A stretch of 52,314 bases of DNA from Nesterenkonia salmonea. Lineage in GTDB: Bacteria; Actinomycetota; Actinomycetes; Actinomycetales; Micrococcaceae. Below are positions 43,525 through 52,314 of the stretch, one piece after another. How positions within the stretch are numbered: the first letter of the stretch is position 1; the number at the start of each line of letters is the position of its first letter. The notes under the pieces were generated by a model. That model did no database searches, was not told the origin of the DNA, and saw only the letters and a list, made by a program, of their open reading frames with translations. The stretch spans positions 1 through 52,314 of the forward strand of contig NZ_VAVZ01000024.1 of NCBI RefSeq assembly GCF_005771525.1, written 5' to 3'. The position numbers were made by a program, and so were the translations under genes.

Positions 43525-44232
43525 TCAGTCCTCACGTTCGGCAAACACCACCCGATTGTCGAGGTGCCTGCCGGCGGCGTCGTCGAACTCTCCGGTACAG
43601 GTGATCAGCCGCAACTGATCATCAGGGCCAGCGCCGAAGACCTCGCGGGTGGGAAAGTCATCCTTGGGGAAGTCAGCGGTGCTGCTGACACGGTAGAGGT
43701 GCTCGTCGCCTTCGGCGTCAGTCACCGTGACCTCATCACCGGGCTCGAGCTCGAGTAGCCGGAAGAAAACGGCGGGTCCGGCGGCGGAATCAACATGGGC
43801 GGCGATCACTGTTGGACCTGGTTGGCCGGGCCTGCTCCCGTTGGCGAACCAGCCGACGTCATCCCAATCAGCCGGGGGCTCCAACCGACCATCCTGCTGA
43901 ATGGCCAGATCGATCAGCGGCTCATCCAACTCAATCCGCGGAATCTCCACGCTCTCCGGTTCCGCCGCCGCAGGGAGCGCTAAGGCTGCACCAGAATCGT
44001 TGCTCGCATCAGACCGGGGTTCGGCGGAGTCTTCCACCTCAGGTTCGGACTCCTGCGTGGACTGAGATGTCTGCTGTAGAGCAGCCTCCGCGTGGTCATC
44101 GGCGTCCTCACCGGTGGCAGCCTGTGTGCACCCGACGAGGAACCCGATGACCGCTGCGCCCATGACCGCACGCCACAGGCCGGGCCGCACTGCCGCACCC
44201 CGGCGCGGCTCTGCCTGTGACGATGGCACCAT
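43525..44232 (-). CDS. class F sortase
   Basis: 235 aa. N-terminal hydrophobic segment ending FLVGC (signal anchor, possibly lipobox) and an acidic Ser/Glu linker to about 95. Sortase core: catalytic His in IAAHVDSAAG (about 146), Cys in LRLITCTGEF (212) and Arg in LDNRVVFAE (227). Class F enzymes are common in actinobacteria and attach surface proteins to peptidoglycan. Seven bp downstream of the CHRD-protein gene, its likely substrate. Confidence 0.92.
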   Translation of the reverse strand: MVPSSQAEPRRGAAVRPGLWRAVMGAAVIGFLVGCTQAATGEDADDHAEAALQQTSQSTQESEPEVEDSAEPRSDASNDSGAALALPAAAEPESVEIPRIELDEPLIDLAIQQDGRLEPPADWDDVGWFANGSRPGQPGPTVIAAHVDSAAGPAVFFRLLELEPGDEVTVTDAEGDEHLYRVSSTADFPKDDFPTREVFGAGPDDQLRLITCTGEFDDAAGRHLDNRVVFAERED

Positions 44233-44239
44233 CAGCGGA

Positions 44240-44962
44240 TCAGGCCTGCTGATCAGCGTTGCGGCGCTTCAGCAGGAAGAACGCGCCTGCGCCGGCCAGT
44301 GCTGCAGCTCCGACACCCAGTGCGGGACCAGCGATGCTCTGCTGAGCTGCCGTTCCGCCACCACCGGTCTCCACTCCGTCCAGCGGAACCTGCATCAGCT
44401 GCGCCCGCACCACACCGTCCGGGTAGTCCTCAGTGTGAGAGTCTGCGGAGAACGCTTCAGGGTCTTCTTCAAGCTGAGCCAGGGTGAAGCCTTCGCCAGT
44501 GTCGTTGCCCTCATCATCGTCGATACCCGTCATGAACGGACCCTCCATCCATCCCGAAGAAGTGCGGGGTTCATCTCCCACCGGCTCAGGGTCAGGGAAC
44601 GCGATGCGTGGTGGACCGGGTTCTCCGGCGGCGGCCTCATGAATGTGAGTAGCCGTCATGGCTGGGCTTTCATAGTCCCCAGTGACACCTTCGAGCGTGA
44701 TCTCGTAGCAGATGACGTCTGTCTCTGAGTTGACCCAGAGCATAAAGTCGCCCATGGCGCCCTCCTCACCGGGGGAGACTTCACCGTCACCGTCGATGAC
44801 CTCCTCCGGCACAGCCATGGCCGTGAACGCGCTGGTGAACTCATCCGGCCATTCGACCTCAGTGTTGGCCTGCGCCGGGGTGGCCAGCAGCAGCGACGCA
44901 GCCGCACCAGCAGCAACGCAGCTCCCCGCCACTGTCCGGCGACGCATTGTTCCAGTACCCAT
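44240..44962 (-). CDS. secreted CHRD-domain surface protein, candidate sortase substrate
   Basis: 240 aa from ATG 44962 with GAGAGGA ribosome site. Signal peptide cleaved after TPAQA (about residue 33). CHRD domain ~40-185 (DVICYEITLEGVTGD, THIHEAAAGEPGPPRI, PDGVVRAQLMQ). The end has a sortase-substrate layout: motif region VPLDGVETGGGG, hydrophobic helix, then KRRNADQQA. A canonical LPxTG is absent, so class F recognition of an alternative TG-type motif is likely. Promoter region shared with the sigma gene at 45160. Confidence 0.85.
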   Translation of the reverse strand: MGTGTMRRRTVAGSCVAAGAAASLLLATPAQANTEVEWPDEFTSAFTAMAVPEEVIDGDGEVSPGEEGAMGDFMLWVNSETDVICYEITLEGVTGDYESPAMTATHIHEAAAGEPGPPRIAFPDPEPVGDEPRTSSGWMEGPFMTGIDDDEGNDTGEGFTLAQLEEDPEAFSADSHTEDYPDGVVRAQLMQVPLDGVETGGGGTAAQQSIAGPALGVGAAALAGAGAFFLLKRRNADQQA

Positions 44963-45008
44963 GATGTGTTCCTCTCTCATGACTCTCACAGACCGCGGGT
45001 GCGCCCTG

Positions 45009-45159: not shown

Positions 45160-45721
45160 GTGATCAGACTGGCCGAACGTCAGTCGACAGCCACTGGTGC
45201 GGCTCCGGCATCCCCGCCGCAGGAGAGCAGTTTCGACGTCGCATCCGCCTATCAGCGTTTCGGCCGCGAGCTGTACCTGTTTGCCCTCAACGCGTTGGGC
45301 GACGCCGGTGCTGCCGAGGAAGCCATACAGGAGGCTTTCACCCGAGCATGGCGGGCGCGGTCTCGGTTTGATTCCCAGCAGGGAAGCGTGCGCACCTGGC
45401 TTTTCGCGATTGCCCGCAATGTCATCCGAGACACCTTCCGGCGCCGCGCTCGCATCCCGGAGCCGGTGGATGATAGCCGCCTGAGCCCATCTTCATGACC
45501 CTGCGCGCGACCCTGACGAGAGCCTGGTGCTGCTGGAAGCCCTGTCAGCGCTGAGCCGTGACCACCGGCAAGCCGTGATCGCCATCCACGTGGTGGGCCT
45601 CAGCTATGCTGAGCTCTCCGACGCACTCGGCGTCTCCGTGTCGACTCTGCGGTCGAGGACCTTCCACGGCCTGCGGGCCCTGCGTCAGCACATCACATCC
45701 GGGGAGGAGAGCGATGACTGA
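45160..45721 (+). pseudogene. ECF sigma factor (SigK-like position) split by a frameshift
   Basis: Frame A from GTG 45160 encodes region 2 (YQRFGRELYLFALNALG, AEEAIQEAFTRAWRAR, VRTWLFAIARNVIRDTFRRR) and stops at TGA 45496-45498. Region 4 (LEALSALSRDHRQAVIAIHV, YAELSDALGVSVSTLRSR) follows in the +1 frame, which is open only after a stop at 45482-45484 and ends at 45721. The shift must lie within 45485-45498. The break sits in the linker between the two sigma domains. It is either a true one-base insertion, a sequencing error, or +1 slippage at TCA-TGA-C, which resembles the prfB site in having UGA followed by C. The anti-sigma gene overlaps the 3' end, so the unit was functional recently. Confidence 0.8.
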
Positions 45722-46550
45722 ACATTCCGATCGCGCCCAGGAGCTGATCGCTGCGGCCTTGGCCGGTGACCTGAGCCCAGCGGAGCAGCAGGAGTTCGAG
45801 GCTCTCCGCGCGCAGGACCCCAGTATTGACTCCACTATGGCCGAGTTTTGCTCCCTTGTGACCGGGCTGCGCACCGCGGGACATCAATGGGAAGAGGCGA
45901 CGCCGCCGCCGAGCCTTGAGCAGTCCGTACTCAGTCTTGCCGGGGATCTTAGTTCTGACGACGGCACTCCCGCCGAACAACCAGGTGGCCCGGTCCCTGA
46001 CCATGAGACTTCGAGTGCCGACGCCTCACTGCATCCAGCCCTGGATGAGCAGTTCGCACGGTCAACGAGTACCAGGAGCCGGCGCCGTGCGGCATTCGCT
46101 CTGGCCGCAGCTGGGGGCGCGGTCCTGGGTGGTGCTGTCACGGTCGGCGTCCAGCAGATCATGGACGCACCACCTGATGGCCCGCCCGGAACCTACGGTG
46201 CGGTCGAAGACGTTGCCTTCGACTCCCAAACTCCGGGCGTGGACCTCGACGCAAGTCTCATCGCCCACACCTGGGGCACCGAGACCGTGCTGGAGATTGA
46301 CGGGCTCGAACCCGGTGAAAGCTTCACGGTAGTGCTCATTTCCGAGGAGGGCGATGAGTACGCTTCAGGGACGTTCTTCGGCTCGGAGGTGCTCATCGAG
46401 TGCCGCATGAACGCCGCCATCATGCGTGATGAGGTCGCCCGAGTGGAAATCACTGCGGCCGACGGGGACCTGATCGCAGGGGCTGACCTTCCGGATGCGA
46501 TCGACCCTGAAGCCGAGGAGACTGAGACTGAAGCGGCCGAGTCCGACTAA
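45714..46550 (+). CDS. RskA-like membrane anti-sigma factor
   Basis: 278 aa from ATG 45714 with GGGGAGGA ribosome site and 8-bp overlap with the sigma gene. Cytoplasmic N-terminal helical domain (ELIAAALAGDLSPAEQQEFE) without zinc ligands, long Pro/Asp-rich linker, one membrane helix (about 126-146), then an extracytoplasmic beta domain (WGTETVLEIDGLEPGESFTV) like the RskA C-terminal domain, and an acidic tail. Predicted to hold the neighbouring sigma factor until proteolysis. Confidence 0.85.
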   Translation: MTEHSDRAQELIAAALAGDLSPAEQQEFEALRAQDPSIDSTMAEFCSLVTGLRTAGHQWEEATPPPSLEQSVLSLAGDLSSDDGTPAEQPGGPVPDHETSSADASLHPALDEQFARSTSTRSRRRAAFALAAAGGAVLGGAVTVGVQQIMDAPPDGPPGTYGAVEDVAFDSQTPGVDLDASLIAHTWGTETVLEIDGLEPGESFTVVLISEEGDEYASGTFFGSEVLIECRMNAAIMRDEVARVEITAADGDLIAGADLPDAIDPEAEETETEAAESD

Positions 46551-48030: not shown

Positions 48031-48873
48031 CTAGCCCGGGATTTGGACTGCAGAGCCAGCAACGACGACTCGGGCCGAGTCCTCATCAACCCGCACCTGG
48101 AGCTGACTGGGACGCCCCATATCCTCACCCTGCAGCACAGTAAGTTCACGGACGCCATGGATACGCCCAAGTGAGCGCAGGTATCCGCCGAATGCCGCGG
48201 CAGCAGCACCTGTAGCCGGGTCCTCGACCACCCCGCCCACCGGAAAAGGATTGCGTGAATGGAAGAGCTGGTCAGTCTCCGGCCAGATTAGCTGCACCGT
48301 GGTCCACCCCTGCTCACTCATCAGCGCTTTCAGCGCCTCAAAGTCGTACTCCAGATCGGCCAGACGCTCGCGGGTCGCCGCGACCAGAATCAGGTGCTTT
48401 TCACCACCGAACGCCTCATGAACGGGAAACTCGGCCGAGAGATCCTCAGGGGACCACCCCAGTGCAGCCAGCGCCGCGTGGACTTGTTGCGTTTCTGCGG
48501 GCCGGCTCCGAGTCTCCACACTGGTCAGCGCTGCACGGATGACGCCATCGACCCACTCAGTTTTCACGTCTATGCGCCCGGCGCGAGTCTCGAACACCAC
48601 ATCTCCCACCCCGTCGCGATCGGCCAGAGCGACGGCGGTCGCGATTGTGGCGTGCCCGCAGAACTCCACTTCTGCCAAGGGACTGTAGTAGCGCACGAGG
48701 AACTCAGAAGGTCTTGTGCCTGGCTCAACGAACGCGGTCTCGGAATACCCCACCTCTGCAGCGATGCGTTGCCTGTCCTCTGGAGGCAGGTTCAGAGCTC
48801 CAAGCACGACGCCGGCTGGGTTACCTCCACCAGGCTCGGTAGTGAATGCGGAGTAGCGAAGTACGTTGACCAT
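48031..48873 (-). CDS. PhzF-family isomerase/epimerase-like protein
   Basis: 280 aa from ATG 48873. PhzF signatures: YSAFTTEPGGGNPAGVVL, catalytic Glu in VGYSETAFVEP, VEFCGHATIATA, EDPATGAAAAAFGGYL. The family catalyses proton shifts on small amine-bearing acids; only some members make phenazines and no phenazine genes are nearby, so the substrate is unknown. Flanked by two copies of a 43-bp repeat. Confidence 0.9.
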   Translation of the reverse strand: MVNVLRYSAFTTEPGGGNPAGVVLGALNLPPEDRQRIAAEVGYSETAFVEPGTRPSEFLVRYYSPLAEVEFCGHATIATAVALADRDGVGDVVFETRAGRIDVKTEWVDGVIRAALTSVETRSRPAETQQVHAALAALGWSPEDLSAEFPVHEAFGGEKHLILVAATRERLADLEYDFEALKALMSEQGWTTVQLIWPETDQLFHSRNPFPVGGVVEDPATGAAAAAFGGYLRSLGRIHGVRELTVLQGEDMGRPSQLQVRVDEDSARVVVAGSAVQIPG

Positions 48874-49009
48874 GCTGATGAGTCTGCCTCCACCCATCTA
48901 TCGCGGCAAACGGCAGTTCCTAGTAGCACTCATCGATATAGCCGATAGCATGCTGCGGCGGATACGGGACGACACTTCTTCAAACATTCTTCGTGAATGC
49001 TCGAAACGA

Positions 49010-49282: not shown

Positions 49283-49400
49283 AAGCTAATACGGCAGGGG
49301 TTTTCTGGGGTGGCATGTCACCGGAGAATCGCAGGTGGGCCTGAAGTTGATGGCCATCACATAGAGTGATCTGACGTGCCACATTGTGAGGAGAACACCG

Positions 49401-50405
49401 GTGAATGCGTACCCCGTCCCGCCCTGGGACCCAGAGCTGGTTCCAGCCTTAGCCAACGCCCGCGTCACCATGCCTGCACTCTCTTTGGAGAATCTTGAGG
49501 AGAGGCGCCGCAACATGGCCGAAGGCGTGCCCGGTGAGCCCGAACCGGACCTCACTGCTGGCGGAAGAGTCTTGGTGGAGGAGCGTTCTGTCCCTGGACC
49601 CTACGGCGCTCCGGACATCACTGTGCTCATTCTGAGACCAGCCTCTGGAACCCTCACTGCTGCCGGGATCTACTTCATCCATGGCGGAGGCATGATGATG
49701 GGCACCTGCCGGAACGGGGTCGAAGCACTCGTCAATTATGTGGCTGAGGGTCTCGCCACCGTCGTTTCGGTGGAGTACCGGCTTGCTCCTGAGAACCCCC
49801 ACCCCGCACCCGTTCAGGATTGTTATGCCGGTCTGGTCTGGACCGCGCAGAATGCCGCAGACCTCGGAATCGACGAGGAGCACCTCATGATCGTCGGCAC
49901 CAGCGCCGGAGGCGGTCTTGCGGCAGCCACTGCTCTCATGGCCCGTGACCTCAGTTATCCAGCGTTGTCTCACCAGGTACTCATCGGCCCTATGCTCGAC
50001 GACCGACTTGAAACCCCGAGCAGTCAGATGCTGGACGGTCAGGGGTTTTGGGACCAGCATGAAAACCTCATGGGGTGGCAAGCACTATTGGGTTCTCAAC
50101 AGGGTGGCCCTGATGTCTCCCCCTACGCAGCCCCAGCCCGGGCTGAGGACCTTTCGGGATTGCCTCGCACCTACATTGACTGCGGGTCATCGGAGACGTT
50201 CAGAGACGAGATTCTAAGCTACGCGCAGCGGCTCTCAGCGGCGGGGATCAGCGTAGATCTGCACATGTGGGGCGGCGGGTTCCACAGTTTCGACTCGATC
50301 GCTCCGGAGGCGCTGGTTTCCCGGACTTCTGCAGCCGTGCGCGACGCATTCATCCGCAGAGCATTGAAGGAACACCCGCCGGTTCCCGCCCAAGAAGGCG
50401 ACTGA
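49401..50405 (+). CDS. alpha/beta hydrolase, hormone-sensitive-lipase (family IV) type
   Basis: 334 aa from GTG 49401, with GAGGAG seven bases upstream. Oxyanion motif FIHGGGMMMG, nucleophile GTSAGGGLAA, SVEYRLAPENPHPAP, Asp near ETFRDEILSYA and His in GGGFHSFDS. Likely an esterase on short acyl or carbamate substrates. No signal peptide. Confidence 0.9.
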   Translation: MNAYPVPPWDPELVPALANARVTMPALSLENLEERRRNMAEGVPGEPEPDLTAGGRVLVEERSVPGPYGAPDITVLILRPASGTLTAAGIYFIHGGGMMMGTCRNGVEALVNYVAEGLATVVSVEYRLAPENPHPAPVQDCYAGLVWTAQNAADLGIDEEHLMIVGTSAGGGLAAATALMARDLSYPALSHQVLIGPMLDDRLETPSSQMLDGQGFWDQHENLMGWQALLGSQQGGPDVSPYAAPARAEDLSGLPRTYIDCGSSETFRDEILSYAQRLSAAGISVDLHMWGGGFHSFDSIAPEALVSRTSAAVRDAFIRRALKEHPPVPAQEGD

Positions 50406-50766
50406 GAGGCCCGAGAGACTGAGGCGGCTAAACCTCTAGTCGGCTCGAGGCACCAGCCAGTACCGCCACGAGCTCGGCTGAACTATAGTGCGGTAGTTCC
50501 ACGTGCCCGAGAGAGACCTTAAGCCCTTCCGTGAGGTCTCGATCAACGAGCTCATCTCGCATTGCCTCTTAATTGACGGCATCAAATGTCATGTGAACCG
50601 CATTCATGGCGGCGTGAAGTCTCCGCTGCCGATACGCACGTTTCAACTGGTTGCCCGCACTATCGCCTATCCCGCTTGCCTTTTGCGTATCGGCCGGTAG
50701 CCAAGGAGACATAAGAGAGGCGAAAGGCCCTTCACGATATGGCTGGATCAGAGGAGACTCTTGTGC
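50406..50766. other. 361-bp region upstream of the heliorhodopsin gene
   Basis: No convincing gene. A 65-codon frame at 50503-50700 has no ribosome site or recognisable domain. GAGACC/GGTCTC arms around 50513-50545 form a weak inverted repeat. The heliorhodopsin promoter should lie here, but I could not identify boxes with confidence. Confidence 0.4.
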
Positions 50767-51612
50767 ATGAGTGCCCACCCTCTCGAGCTCAACACGGCTT
50801 GCGTCACGGTGTCATCGCAGACAGCTTGGCGGTTGCGGATATTCAACGCTGTTATCGGGGTGCTCCATTTGGTCTCCGGCTCAGCCATGCTCGCCCTCAG
50901 TAATGACTTTTCCCTGCCCCTCTCCACCTTCACTTTTAACGGTCCGCCAGGGACACCGGTGTCACAAGGCACCCCGAACCTGGTATTCGATCTCCCTCTC
51001 GGGATCGCGACAGCATCCTTCCTTCTGCTCTCCGCTCTCTTCCACTTCCTCATCGTTTCCCCCTGGGGCTTTCGGCGCTACATTCGCGAGCTGTCTAAGG
51101 GACGGAACCGCTTCCGCTGGGTGGAGTACAGCCTGTCCTCGACGCTCATGATCGTGCTCATCAGCCTCCTACTTGGCATCTCTGACATCGCGGCTCTCAT
51201 CGGCCTGGGTCTCGCCAACGTCGCCATGATCTTCTTTGGCTGGCTGATGGAAATGGCAAACAACGGCCTTATGCACGGGAAAAACGGACGCTCAGCACGT
51301 GGTGAGCGAGCATGGTGGACCCCTTTCTGGTTCGGATGCGTCGTCGGAGTTGGCCCGTGGTTAGCAGCCGCTATCTACCTGATCATCAACGTCGGCATTG
51401 AGGGTGGTGAAGGCCCGCCGGGGTTCGTCTATGGCATCATCGTGTCGCTGTTCATCTTCTTCAACATCTTTGCCGTCAACCAGTGGCTCCAATACAAGCA
51501 ACTCGGCCGATGGAAGAACTACCTGACGGGAGAGCGCACGTACATCGTGCTGAGCCTGGTCGCCAAGAGCCTGCTGGCGTGGCAGGTATTCGCGAACGTT
51601 CTGGTGAGCTGA
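50767..51612 (+). CDS. heliorhodopsin
   Basis: 281 aa from ATG 50767 with GAGGAG 10 bases upstream; a TTG two codons earlier is possible. Seven membrane helices. Helix 3 carries RWVEYSLSSTLMIVLI, where Glu ~120 is the expected Schiff-base counterion. Helix 7 carries SLVAKSLLAWQVFAN, where Lys ~267 is the retinal-binding residue. Other heliorhodopsin blocks are ALSNDFSLP, GPPGFVYGIIVSLFIFFN and FAVNQWLQYK. Heliorhodopsins are light-absorbing proteins inverted in the membrane relative to type 1 rhodopsins, with a slow photocycle and debated function; they are found mainly in monoderm bacteria and related groups. No carotenoid or retinal-synthesis gene lies in this window, so retinal must come from elsewhere. 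Confidence 0.95.
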   Translation: MSAHPLELNTACVTVSSQTAWRLRIFNAVIGVLHLVSGSAMLALSNDFSLPLSTFTFNGPPGTPVSQGTPNLVFDLPLGIATASFLLLSALFHFLIVSPWGFRRYIRELSKGRNRFRWVEYSLSSTLMIVLISLLLGISDIAALIGLGLANVAMIFFGWLMEMANNGLMHGKNGRSARGERAWWTPFWFGCVVGVGPWLAAAIYLIINVGIEGGEGPPGFVYGIIVSLFIFFNIFAVNQWLQYKQLGRWKNYLTGERTYIVLSLVAKSLLAWQVFANVLVS

Positions 51613-51646: not shown

Positions 51647-52072
51647 TTAGGTAAGGACCATGACTCTTGAGCCAGCTCCTCGACCAGCTCTAAGGTTGTC
51701 GACCGCAGCTACCAATTCAGGGAAAGAATAACGAGCAACTCTGGGAGTGAGTCGCAATTCAGTGGCCAACCCGAGGAACGCGGCCCCTCCCGGCACCATC
51801 GGCATGACCCGCACGTGCTCCGCAGCCAAGCCACGCCCACCCTGTCACCTAAGTCATGTTGGAATGCGGCGTCCCCTACCGCAGCGACAGTTCCGACGAC
51901 TTGATGATCAGGGATCACACCTGGTGGATGCGCGGTCGATGACGTGAAGATCAGTGCGGCACACCCCTCAGGCTTGTACCTTCACGAGTAGTTCGTCAGC
52001 CTTGGGCGCGGGGATGTGGCATTCCGCCAGGATCAGGGTGCCTGCTACGGAGCCGGTATGCCATGCTCTCAT
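51647..52072 (-). pseudogene. decayed zinc-dependent alcohol dehydrogenase
   Basis: Three pieces in changing frames: the N terminus MRAWHTGSVAGTLI... to KVQA, where TGA (51970-51968) replaces the first Cys codon of the catalytic-zinc motif (next codons GVCRTDLHV); then, after a frameshift near 51920-51940, IPDHQVVGTVAAVGD and the structural-zinc Cys block STCGSCRWCREG; then, in another frame, the family C terminus (TPRVARYSFPELVAAV, NLRAGRGAG). The NAD-binding Rossmann domain is missing, so there is a large internal deletion. Not functional. Confidence 0.8.
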
Positions 52073-52314
52073 TTTTGGCCAATGACTCGGGGTGGTGCGC
52101 TGGTGAAGACCGCCGTGTTCTCCCGTACGGCTGCGGCGAGTATTCCTACCACCAGAATTATCTGGAGGAGACCTGTCGCAAAGTAGAGCCCTTGCAGCCA
52201 TGAGAACCCCCAATGATGCCGGTTTCCACGAAGATCCAGATGACCATAAGTAGTGCCCCATAGAGTGGTGTAGCACCTGGTGACCATGACGGTCCTGAAC
52301 GTGAGCGCGGTCAT
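52069..52314 (-). CDS. hypothetical membrane protein, partial at window edge
   Basis: At least 81 codons; the frame reaches the window end, where an ATG happens to lie, so the true start may be outside. One clear membrane helix (LYFATGLLQIILVVGILAAA) and a polar tail. Its stop overlaps the first ATG of the decayed adh by ATGA, the coupling expected of an old operon. No family recognised; it may be decayed as well. Confidence 0.35.
   Translation of the reverse strand: MTALTFRTVMVTRCYTTLWGTTYGHLDLRGNRHHWGFSWLQGLYFATGLLQIILVVGILAAAVRENTAVFTSAPPRVIGQK

Follow-up and report, generated by a model that had tools for sequence, protein, structure and literature searches.

The heliorhodopsin (HeR) gene of Nesterenkonia salmonea raises the question of where its retinal comes from, and of which cellular activity the protein serves. 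The gene lies in a window of 52,314 nucleotides, which represents an entire contig (C58) that ends 0.7 kb downstream of the HeR gene, in a genome of 3.28 Mb on 140 contigs with an estimated completeness of 98.5% and a contamination of 0.82%. A genome search returned this single HeR gene, and HeR was present in 6/30 Nesterenkonia genomes (5/26 among those at least 90% complete). The window HeR belongs to a known kind of protein, of which it is a modestly new variant, and apart from one loop and the retinal question it is an ordinary heliorhodopsin.

Identity and key residues of the heliorhodopsin

The ORF list and its translation contain an intact HeR reading frame (Table 1). The mechanical ORF opens at a TTG codon (50761) located 5' of the ATG at 50767; the latter is the likely start, since MSAHPLEL aligns with M..YPLEL of the other sub-branch Nesterenkonia proteins. 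The protein matched PF18761 over positions 1-242 of 242 (312.9 bits, E 1.7e-93), with no other Pfam family returned at E<=1, and the HeR equivalog model NF038020 over positions 1-244 of 244 (298.2 bits versus a cut-off of 100). Structures of 48C12 (PDB 6uh3, 6su3 and 6su4), the nearest relative with a solved structure, were matched at E about 1e-72, and the type-1 microbial rhodopsin family PF01036 matched neither the HeR protein (E<=1) nor anything else in the genome. An AlphaFold model of moderate confidence (37 sequences, mean pLDDT 74.9, pTM 0.74) predicts seven helices with a heliorhodopsin fold; its ten best Foldseek hits were all heliorhodopsin chains (E 9e-17 to 1.3e-13), followed by type-1 rhodopsins and others from E 5.9e-3. 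The family matches, the 48C12 match and the fold all agree and bear out the heliorhodopsin identity proposed in the earlier note, and no other seven-helix family gave a better match in the Pfam, structure-sequence or Foldseek searches.

In the best Foldseek alignment 48C12 shares 48% identity with the window HeR and resembles it in fold and in the aligned counterion and lysine, but differs in that its second cytoplasmic loop is 12 residues shorter and in that the alignment starts at residue 23 of the window HeR. Residues R117, E120, S124, L131, S263, K267, H34 and H93, which we equate with numbered residues of 48C12, are all in place, and with the exception of L131 none of them varies in the 37-sequence alignment; the 48C12 glutamate aligned with E120 is E107. 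The RWVEYS and AKSLLAWQ blocks that the earlier note had assigned to helices 3 and 7 correspond to residues 117-122 and 266-273, and the helix-7 lysine that it had named is present, aligned and invariant as K267. The SxxxK motif of helix 7 is formed by S263 and K267, and the ESL motif of TM3 by E120, S124 and L131, where we take the bacteriorhodopsin spacing 85/89/96 to apply. The former motif is used as a heliorhodopsin criterion (PMC8612252) and the latter is described as a heliorhodopsin trait (PMC9601134). With regard to the inverted topology of heliorhodopsins, in which the N-terminus lies inside, the charge pattern of the sequence comprises six R/K in residues 99-115 and none in residues 45-77.

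Comparison of the window gene with that of N. pannonica yielded a dN of 0.060 and a dS of 0.539, i.e., a ratio of about 0.11 (Nei-Gojobori), while two other Nesterenkonia HeR genes yielded a dN of 0.018 and a dS of 0.204 by the same method; the remaining dS values against the window HeR exceeded 1 and were saturated. Purifying selection maintains the window HeR.

Table 1. Coordinates of the features discussed (window positions, unless a locus is named).
Feature	Position	Strand	Basis or remark
PhzF-family protein (PF02567)	48031..48897	-	adjacency not conserved
HSL-type esterase (Abhydrolase_3, PF07859), upstream	49386..50405	+	adjacency not conserved
Esterase-HeR gap, 361 bases	50406..50766		blastn against 95 other HeR loci: no match
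GAGGAGACT, degenerate copy of TGnnACACT-like element	50751..50759	+	upstream alignment
HeR gene	50767..51612	+	281 aa plus stop; ORF, profile and structure-sequence matches
N-terminal tail, residues 1-22	50767..50832	+	outside 48C12 alignment; P5, L6, V13 and A20 invariant in sub-branch
E120 codon, presumed Schiff-base counterion	51124..51126	+	aligned with glutamate of 48C12
Lengthened second cytoplasmic loop (NNGLMH ... RG), residues 164-182	51256..51312	+	alignments
K267 codon, presumed retinal-binding lysine of TM7 (S263xxxK267)	51565..51567	+	alignment
Downstream DNA to contig end	51613..52314		ORFs 51968-52312 and 52069-52314 without Pfam match
UbiA prenyltransferase	L013 2956-3966		NF009608 430.6 bits vs 217
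Second small cyclase-domain protein	L013 3803-4156		TIGR03462 52.7 bits vs 39.4; PF18916
Small cyclase-domain protein	L013 4138-4476		TIGR03462 57.4 bits vs 39.4; no Pfam match
CrtI	L013 4466-6028		TIGR02734 521.7 bits vs cut-off 238.1
CrtB	L013 6025-6918		PF00494 131.6 bits; no NCBIfam CrtB model at cut-off
idi-like gene	L013 6915-7481		by reading only
MarR gene, divergent	L013, at 7550
Type-1 rhodopsin regions	L121 5565-7051; L122 7671-9154; L123 7296-8783

A sub-branch with a lengthened second cytoplasmic loop

A genome collection was scanned with the window protein, and the best 80 of 247 HeR loci were kept. The tree comprised 95 of 96 proteins, the short L028 having been dropped, with SH-aLRT as its sole support measure, and was built without the insertion columns (residues 167-177), because these were filled in fewer than 30% of rows. 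The window HeR pairs with that of N. pannonica (SH-aLRT 98) within the Nesterenkonia rows (96), which in turn nest in a sub-branch of 22 rows (99), 19 of them distinct, drawn from six families, i.e., Micrococcaceae, Dietziaceae, Propionibacteriaceae, Intrasporangiaceae, Ornithinimicrobiaceae and Dermatophilaceae. The HeR of a further Nesterenkonia genome (G024) falls on another branch, and the genus thus contains two HeR lineages.

The second cytoplasmic loop of the window HeR carries an insertion, and all six distinct HeR sequences with solved structures are shorter at this point, by 12 residues (48C12, three sequences), 11 residues (Thermoplasmatales, two) or 6 residues (9vfc). The sub-branch form of the loop reads GWLMExxNNGLM...RGxxxWW[TS]PFWFG, in which N165-M169 and R178-G179 are invariant across the 19 distinct members and the residues between mostly vary. 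The NNGLM motif is found in exactly the 22 sub-branch proteins of the 96; neither the remaining 74 nor any of the six solved sequences has it. A search of openly licensed PMC papers gave nothing on an intracellular-loop insertion in heliorhodopsin. The N-terminal tail was also considered as a mark of the sub-branch and was rejected, as residues 1-22 are less conserved than the whole protein (0.67 versus 0.87) and as the tail also occurs outside the sub-branch, residues 1-8 being filled in 35-59% of the 95 rows.

Gene neighbourhood

The esterase and the PhzF-like protein described as neighbours in the earlier note were recovered through their PF07859 and PF02567 matches, and its view that the neighbours do not supply retinal is supported, while its 'decayed oxidoreductase' at 51968-52312 lacks a Pfam match and was not confirmed. 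Five window ORFs were compared with the ORFs found up to 6 kb from HeR in 95 further loci, a set that includes duplicates as well as loci reaching only about 1.5 kb. The PhzF protein was the sole one of the five with a match at E<=1e-3 (L117, 27% identity, E 5.7e-10), and none of the window ORFs within 6 kb of HeR clustered with those of other loci, save for an antisense artefact of HeR itself. The pairing of esterase and HeR, for which a conservation check had been suggested, was not found in any of these 95 loci, and the idea that lipid and stress genes close to HeR could bear on its function finds no support in neighbours that are not conserved across them.

A conserved HeR operon was likewise considered and set aside: of 131 ORF clusters with at least three loci each, 45 were viewed, none with more than 14 members, and these comprised, apart from overlapping-frame artefacts of HeR, mainly a block of the N. 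aurantiaca group and large generic families. CtaG and DUF2243 genes (divergent) and an aldo/keto reductase are common to three Nesterenkonia HeR loci (G018, G004 and G022), N. pannonica and G024 have other genes beside HeR, and the window is different again. The sequence of the HeR gene is conserved amid changing surroundings, and frequent relocation of the gene would also account for neighbours that are not conserved.

Two other loci displayed features of their own. In N. pannonica a convergent gene downstream of HeR (L017 7810-9228), which reading and clustering mark as ABC-transporter-like, appears in several ORF pieces and is possibly broken. In Lactococcus petauri a mobilizable plasmid of 10.5 kb carries an HeR gene (L127, NZ_CP141705.1, 4146-4922), close to which lie an IS6 transposase, a recombinase and mobilization genes.

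Upstream element and expression

The region upstream of the HeR start was aligned for 17 of the 19 distinct sub-branch genes, L049 (whose start is not ATG) and L015 being left out. The best nine-base windows reached 8.60 bits at -15, compared to a mean of 3.06 bits (sd 0.28, maximum 3.94) at more distant upstream positions of these 17 sequences. The pattern TGnnANA[CA]T was found 5-8 nt before the ATG in 11/19 sub-branch genes versus 0/57 other HeR genes, and a looser form in 16/19 versus 3/57, where both patterns were devised after the sequences had been viewed and the genes compared are related. The 57 represent those of the 63 loci tried (L057-L119) that yielded an ATG, with L018-L028 lying outside the comparison. 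Across the sub-branch loci TGnnANA[CA]T precedes 12 of 6471 ATGs, the 11 HeR genes included.

This element is compatible with an extended -10 whose transcript begins at the ATG, but also with an operator, as some copies look like dyads by eye. The window copy, GAGGAGACT, is degenerate; it could be the extended -10 of a leaderless promoter or simply a Shine-Dalgarno sequence. Dyads with spacers of 14-21 upstream of HeR were not above shuffled sequences. A role for the element as an operator for the crt regulator was rejected, no copy being seen by eye between the idi-like gene and the MarR gene; one-mismatch matches to GTGNNNCACT in the crt locus (35 versus 46 expected) showed no excess over chance, and TGNNACACT occurs once in the window versus 5 expected, at a site elsewhere than upstream of HeR. 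A search of openly licensed PMC papers gave nothing that links heliorhodopsin with leaderless transcripts. The HeR gene is probably expressed alone and not with the esterase.

Carotenoid genes and the search for retinal-forming enzymes

The single SQS_PSY match of the genome lies inside a carotenoid cluster on contig C13 (locus L013; Table 1), whose gene order resembles the decaprenoxanthin-type C50 cluster of Corynebacterium. It has a C50-like make-up, with CrtB, CrtI, two small CarR-type cyclases and a UbiA prenyltransferase, and is likely of C50 type rather than beta-carotene type; a search of the genome for a further CarR-type lycopene cyclase returned only a sub-threshold match of 15.8 bits. 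The crt operon of C. glutamicum has a divergent MarR regulator, according to the abstract of a published paper. The earlier note had expected the HeR to depend on a distant blh/crt locus or on external retinal; a distant crt locus does exist on contig C13, while no Blh/Brp or RPE65-type match accompanies it.

Neither PF15461 (Blh/Brp) nor PF03055 (RPE65 type) matched any of 30 Nesterenkonia genomes, including the 26 that are at least 90% complete. No control genome matched in the genus search with PF15461, while two controls matched in that with PF03055; in a sample of 297 genomes of the order, PF15461 was matched in 17 and PF03055 in four, and both searches can therefore find members. The absences in N. 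pannonica count for little as its genome is 62% complete; a gene may also be missing from an assembly in 140 contigs, such as that of N. salmonea, and both profiles may overlook an enzyme that has diverged. PF15461 was furthermore unmatched in 16 of the 17 genomes behind named sub-branch loci, a set that has no completeness values and includes three Nesterenkonia already counted; the exception is Tessaracoccus antarcticus (L120), with a Blh/Brp match of 234.1 bits.

Within the order sample HeR was present in 23/297 genomes, of which six also have Blh, none RPE65 and 17 neither. Blh is commoner in HeR carriers (6/23 versus 11/274, Fisher p 0.0008, phylogeny ignored), as is CrtI above the cut-off (21/23 versus 175/274, p 0.006, phylogeny ignored), the CrtI state of the 23 having been read from E-values (21 at 1.5e-88 or better). 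This enrichment suggests that the carotenoid chemistry of the carrier itself is important and weakens the case for pure uptake. The remaining two carriers, G197 (E 3.8e-11) and G241 (E 2.9e-22), are without a CrtI-strength match, which points to uptake in these genomes.

The HeR genes of these two genomes are located at L124 6405-7205 and L125 6380-7765, respectively, and both genomes are candidate strict retinal scavengers.

Three of the six HeR-bearing Nesterenkonia also possess a type-1 rhodopsin, again with no Blh or RPE65 match. That of L121 has its nearest relatives in 9hfk and Gloeobacter rhodopsin, and each of the three is accompanied by a divergent MarR regulator (84-88% identical among the three). 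A hidden retinal enzyme beside the type-1 rhodopsin was considered and rejected, as this regulator is the sole neighbour common to the three loci.

Proposed function and alternative explanations

Heliorhodopsins have been proposed to act as light-dependent switches of other proteins (PMC8612252, PMC11109279). OcHeR of Ornithinimicrobium cerasi is reported to modulate the ABC transporter OmrDE, and its ICL1 and ICL2 mutants to lose OmrDE binding (PMC11109279). OcHeR is actinobacterial like the window HeR, and its control of a partner via cytoplasmic loops is the model for our proposal. By the residue numbers given in that paper, OcHeR lacks the long loop, since 134 residues separate E118 from K252 compared to 147 between E120 and K267 of the window HeR; it also differs in the transporter operon described there, none being seen beside the window HeR.

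We give about even weight to the proposal that the window HeR is a functional retinal-binding protein, expressed on its own, which tunes a partner rather than pumping ions, with the long loop as docking site and with retinal taken up. The seven-helix protein would have its N-terminus inside, K267 would bind the retinal and E120 would serve as its counterion; light would isomerise the retinal, the change would be passed to the cytoplasmic face, and a partner, docked on the long second inner loop of the sub-branch, would be switched or tuned. This loop would be the most likely docking surface; with a core that stays invariant in six families despite changing gene neighbours, it offers a concrete bait for the HeR partner. 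Retinal would enter the cell from outside: with no known retinal route found in the genome, uptake is the most likely source, and the retinal probably comes either from outside or via an undiscovered route.

The source of retinal is where the main competing explanation differs, as the HeR may work as proposed in a cell that makes its own retinal through a novel enzyme cleaving a C50 or other lycopene-derived carotenoid, which we regard as a real, if tentative, possibility. The clustered crt genes, the CrtI enrichment among HeR carriers and the type-1 rhodopsins kept by three HeR-bearing Nesterenkonia agree with it. So does Aurantimicrobium minutum KNC, described as having crtYe/Yf and crtEb without blh or diox1, in which endogenous retinal was detected by HPLC-MS/MS (PMC7734400, Nakajima et al. 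2020); it resembles Nesterenkonia in combining a rhodopsin with C50-type crt genes and, by that account, with neither blh nor diox1, and differs in that the rhodopsin is a type-1 proton pump and in the demonstration of its retinal content. Its endogenous retinal counts against uptake, as does the actinobacterium whose HeR regulates glutamine synthetase and which is reported to have crtEBIY and blh (PMC9529153). Against synthesis stand the search for a candidate enzyme, which found none, the two HeR carriers without a CrtI-strength match, and Rhodoluna lacicola, which has like genes and is reported to have needed added retinal (PMC7734400). According to PMC12422013, blh is widely missing from actinobacteria, many of which have HeR. 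The Rhodoluna/Aquiluna described there resemble Nesterenkonia in having HeR and carotenoid genes and usually no blh; their crtB and crtY are neighbours, whereas in the N. salmonea cluster the UbiA gene adjoins a pair of small cyclase subunits. It is rather unlikely, in our estimate, that an undescribed enzyme cleaves a product of the C50 pathway and that horizontally spread long-loop HeRs, in addition, act on a single common partner whose gene lies elsewhere.

Two further explanations depart from the proposal in the role of the protein itself. An opsin that acts without retinal or with another chromophore, or that is a relic, would account for the missing Blh and RPE65 matches in the 30 genus genomes and for the patchy presence of HeR (6/30), but the invariant lysine and counterion, the low dN/dS and the intact frame make this improbable. 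A functional tie to the present neighbour esterase, as part of a lipid-linked light response, appears highly improbable: the two genes share a strand, and alpha/beta hydrolases are listed among the ten frequent HeR operon neighbours (PMC11109279), but the 361-base gap is long, other Nesterenkonia have other neighbours, and no esterase homologue (E<=1e-3) occurs among the ORFs up to 6 kb from HeR in the 95 other loci, to the extent that these loci cover that distance.

For the preferred reading, in which retinal is taken up, and for endogenous synthesis alike, the retinal puzzle is already known, and Nesterenkonia is a further instance of it; whether rhodopsins in bacteria without known retinal genes reflect auxotrophy or a novel enzyme is a recognised question. 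In the openly licensed PMC literature one Flavobacterium paper mentions heliorhodopsin as well as Nesterenkonia. If such an enzyme exists, Nesterenkonia represents a compact place in which to find it, with six HeR-positive genomes among 30 and a second rhodopsin in three of them. N. aurantiaca DSM 27373 and N. pannonica DSM 29786 have HeR and no Blh/RPE65 match, and axenic retinal is therefore testable in these strains.

Other genes of the window

Further upstream, the region 43525-44989 encodes a protein with a GVDTG sorting domain (37.9 bits versus a cut-off of 29) and, adjoining it, a class F sortase-like protein whose 155.5 bits fall short of the cut-off of 166; the two likely form a substrate-sortase pair. 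The region 45160-46550 contains a short ECF-sigma-like ORF of 112 aa, which matches positions 6-74 of a 165-position model and looks cut short, followed by a gene that, by reading, possibly encodes an anti-sigma factor.
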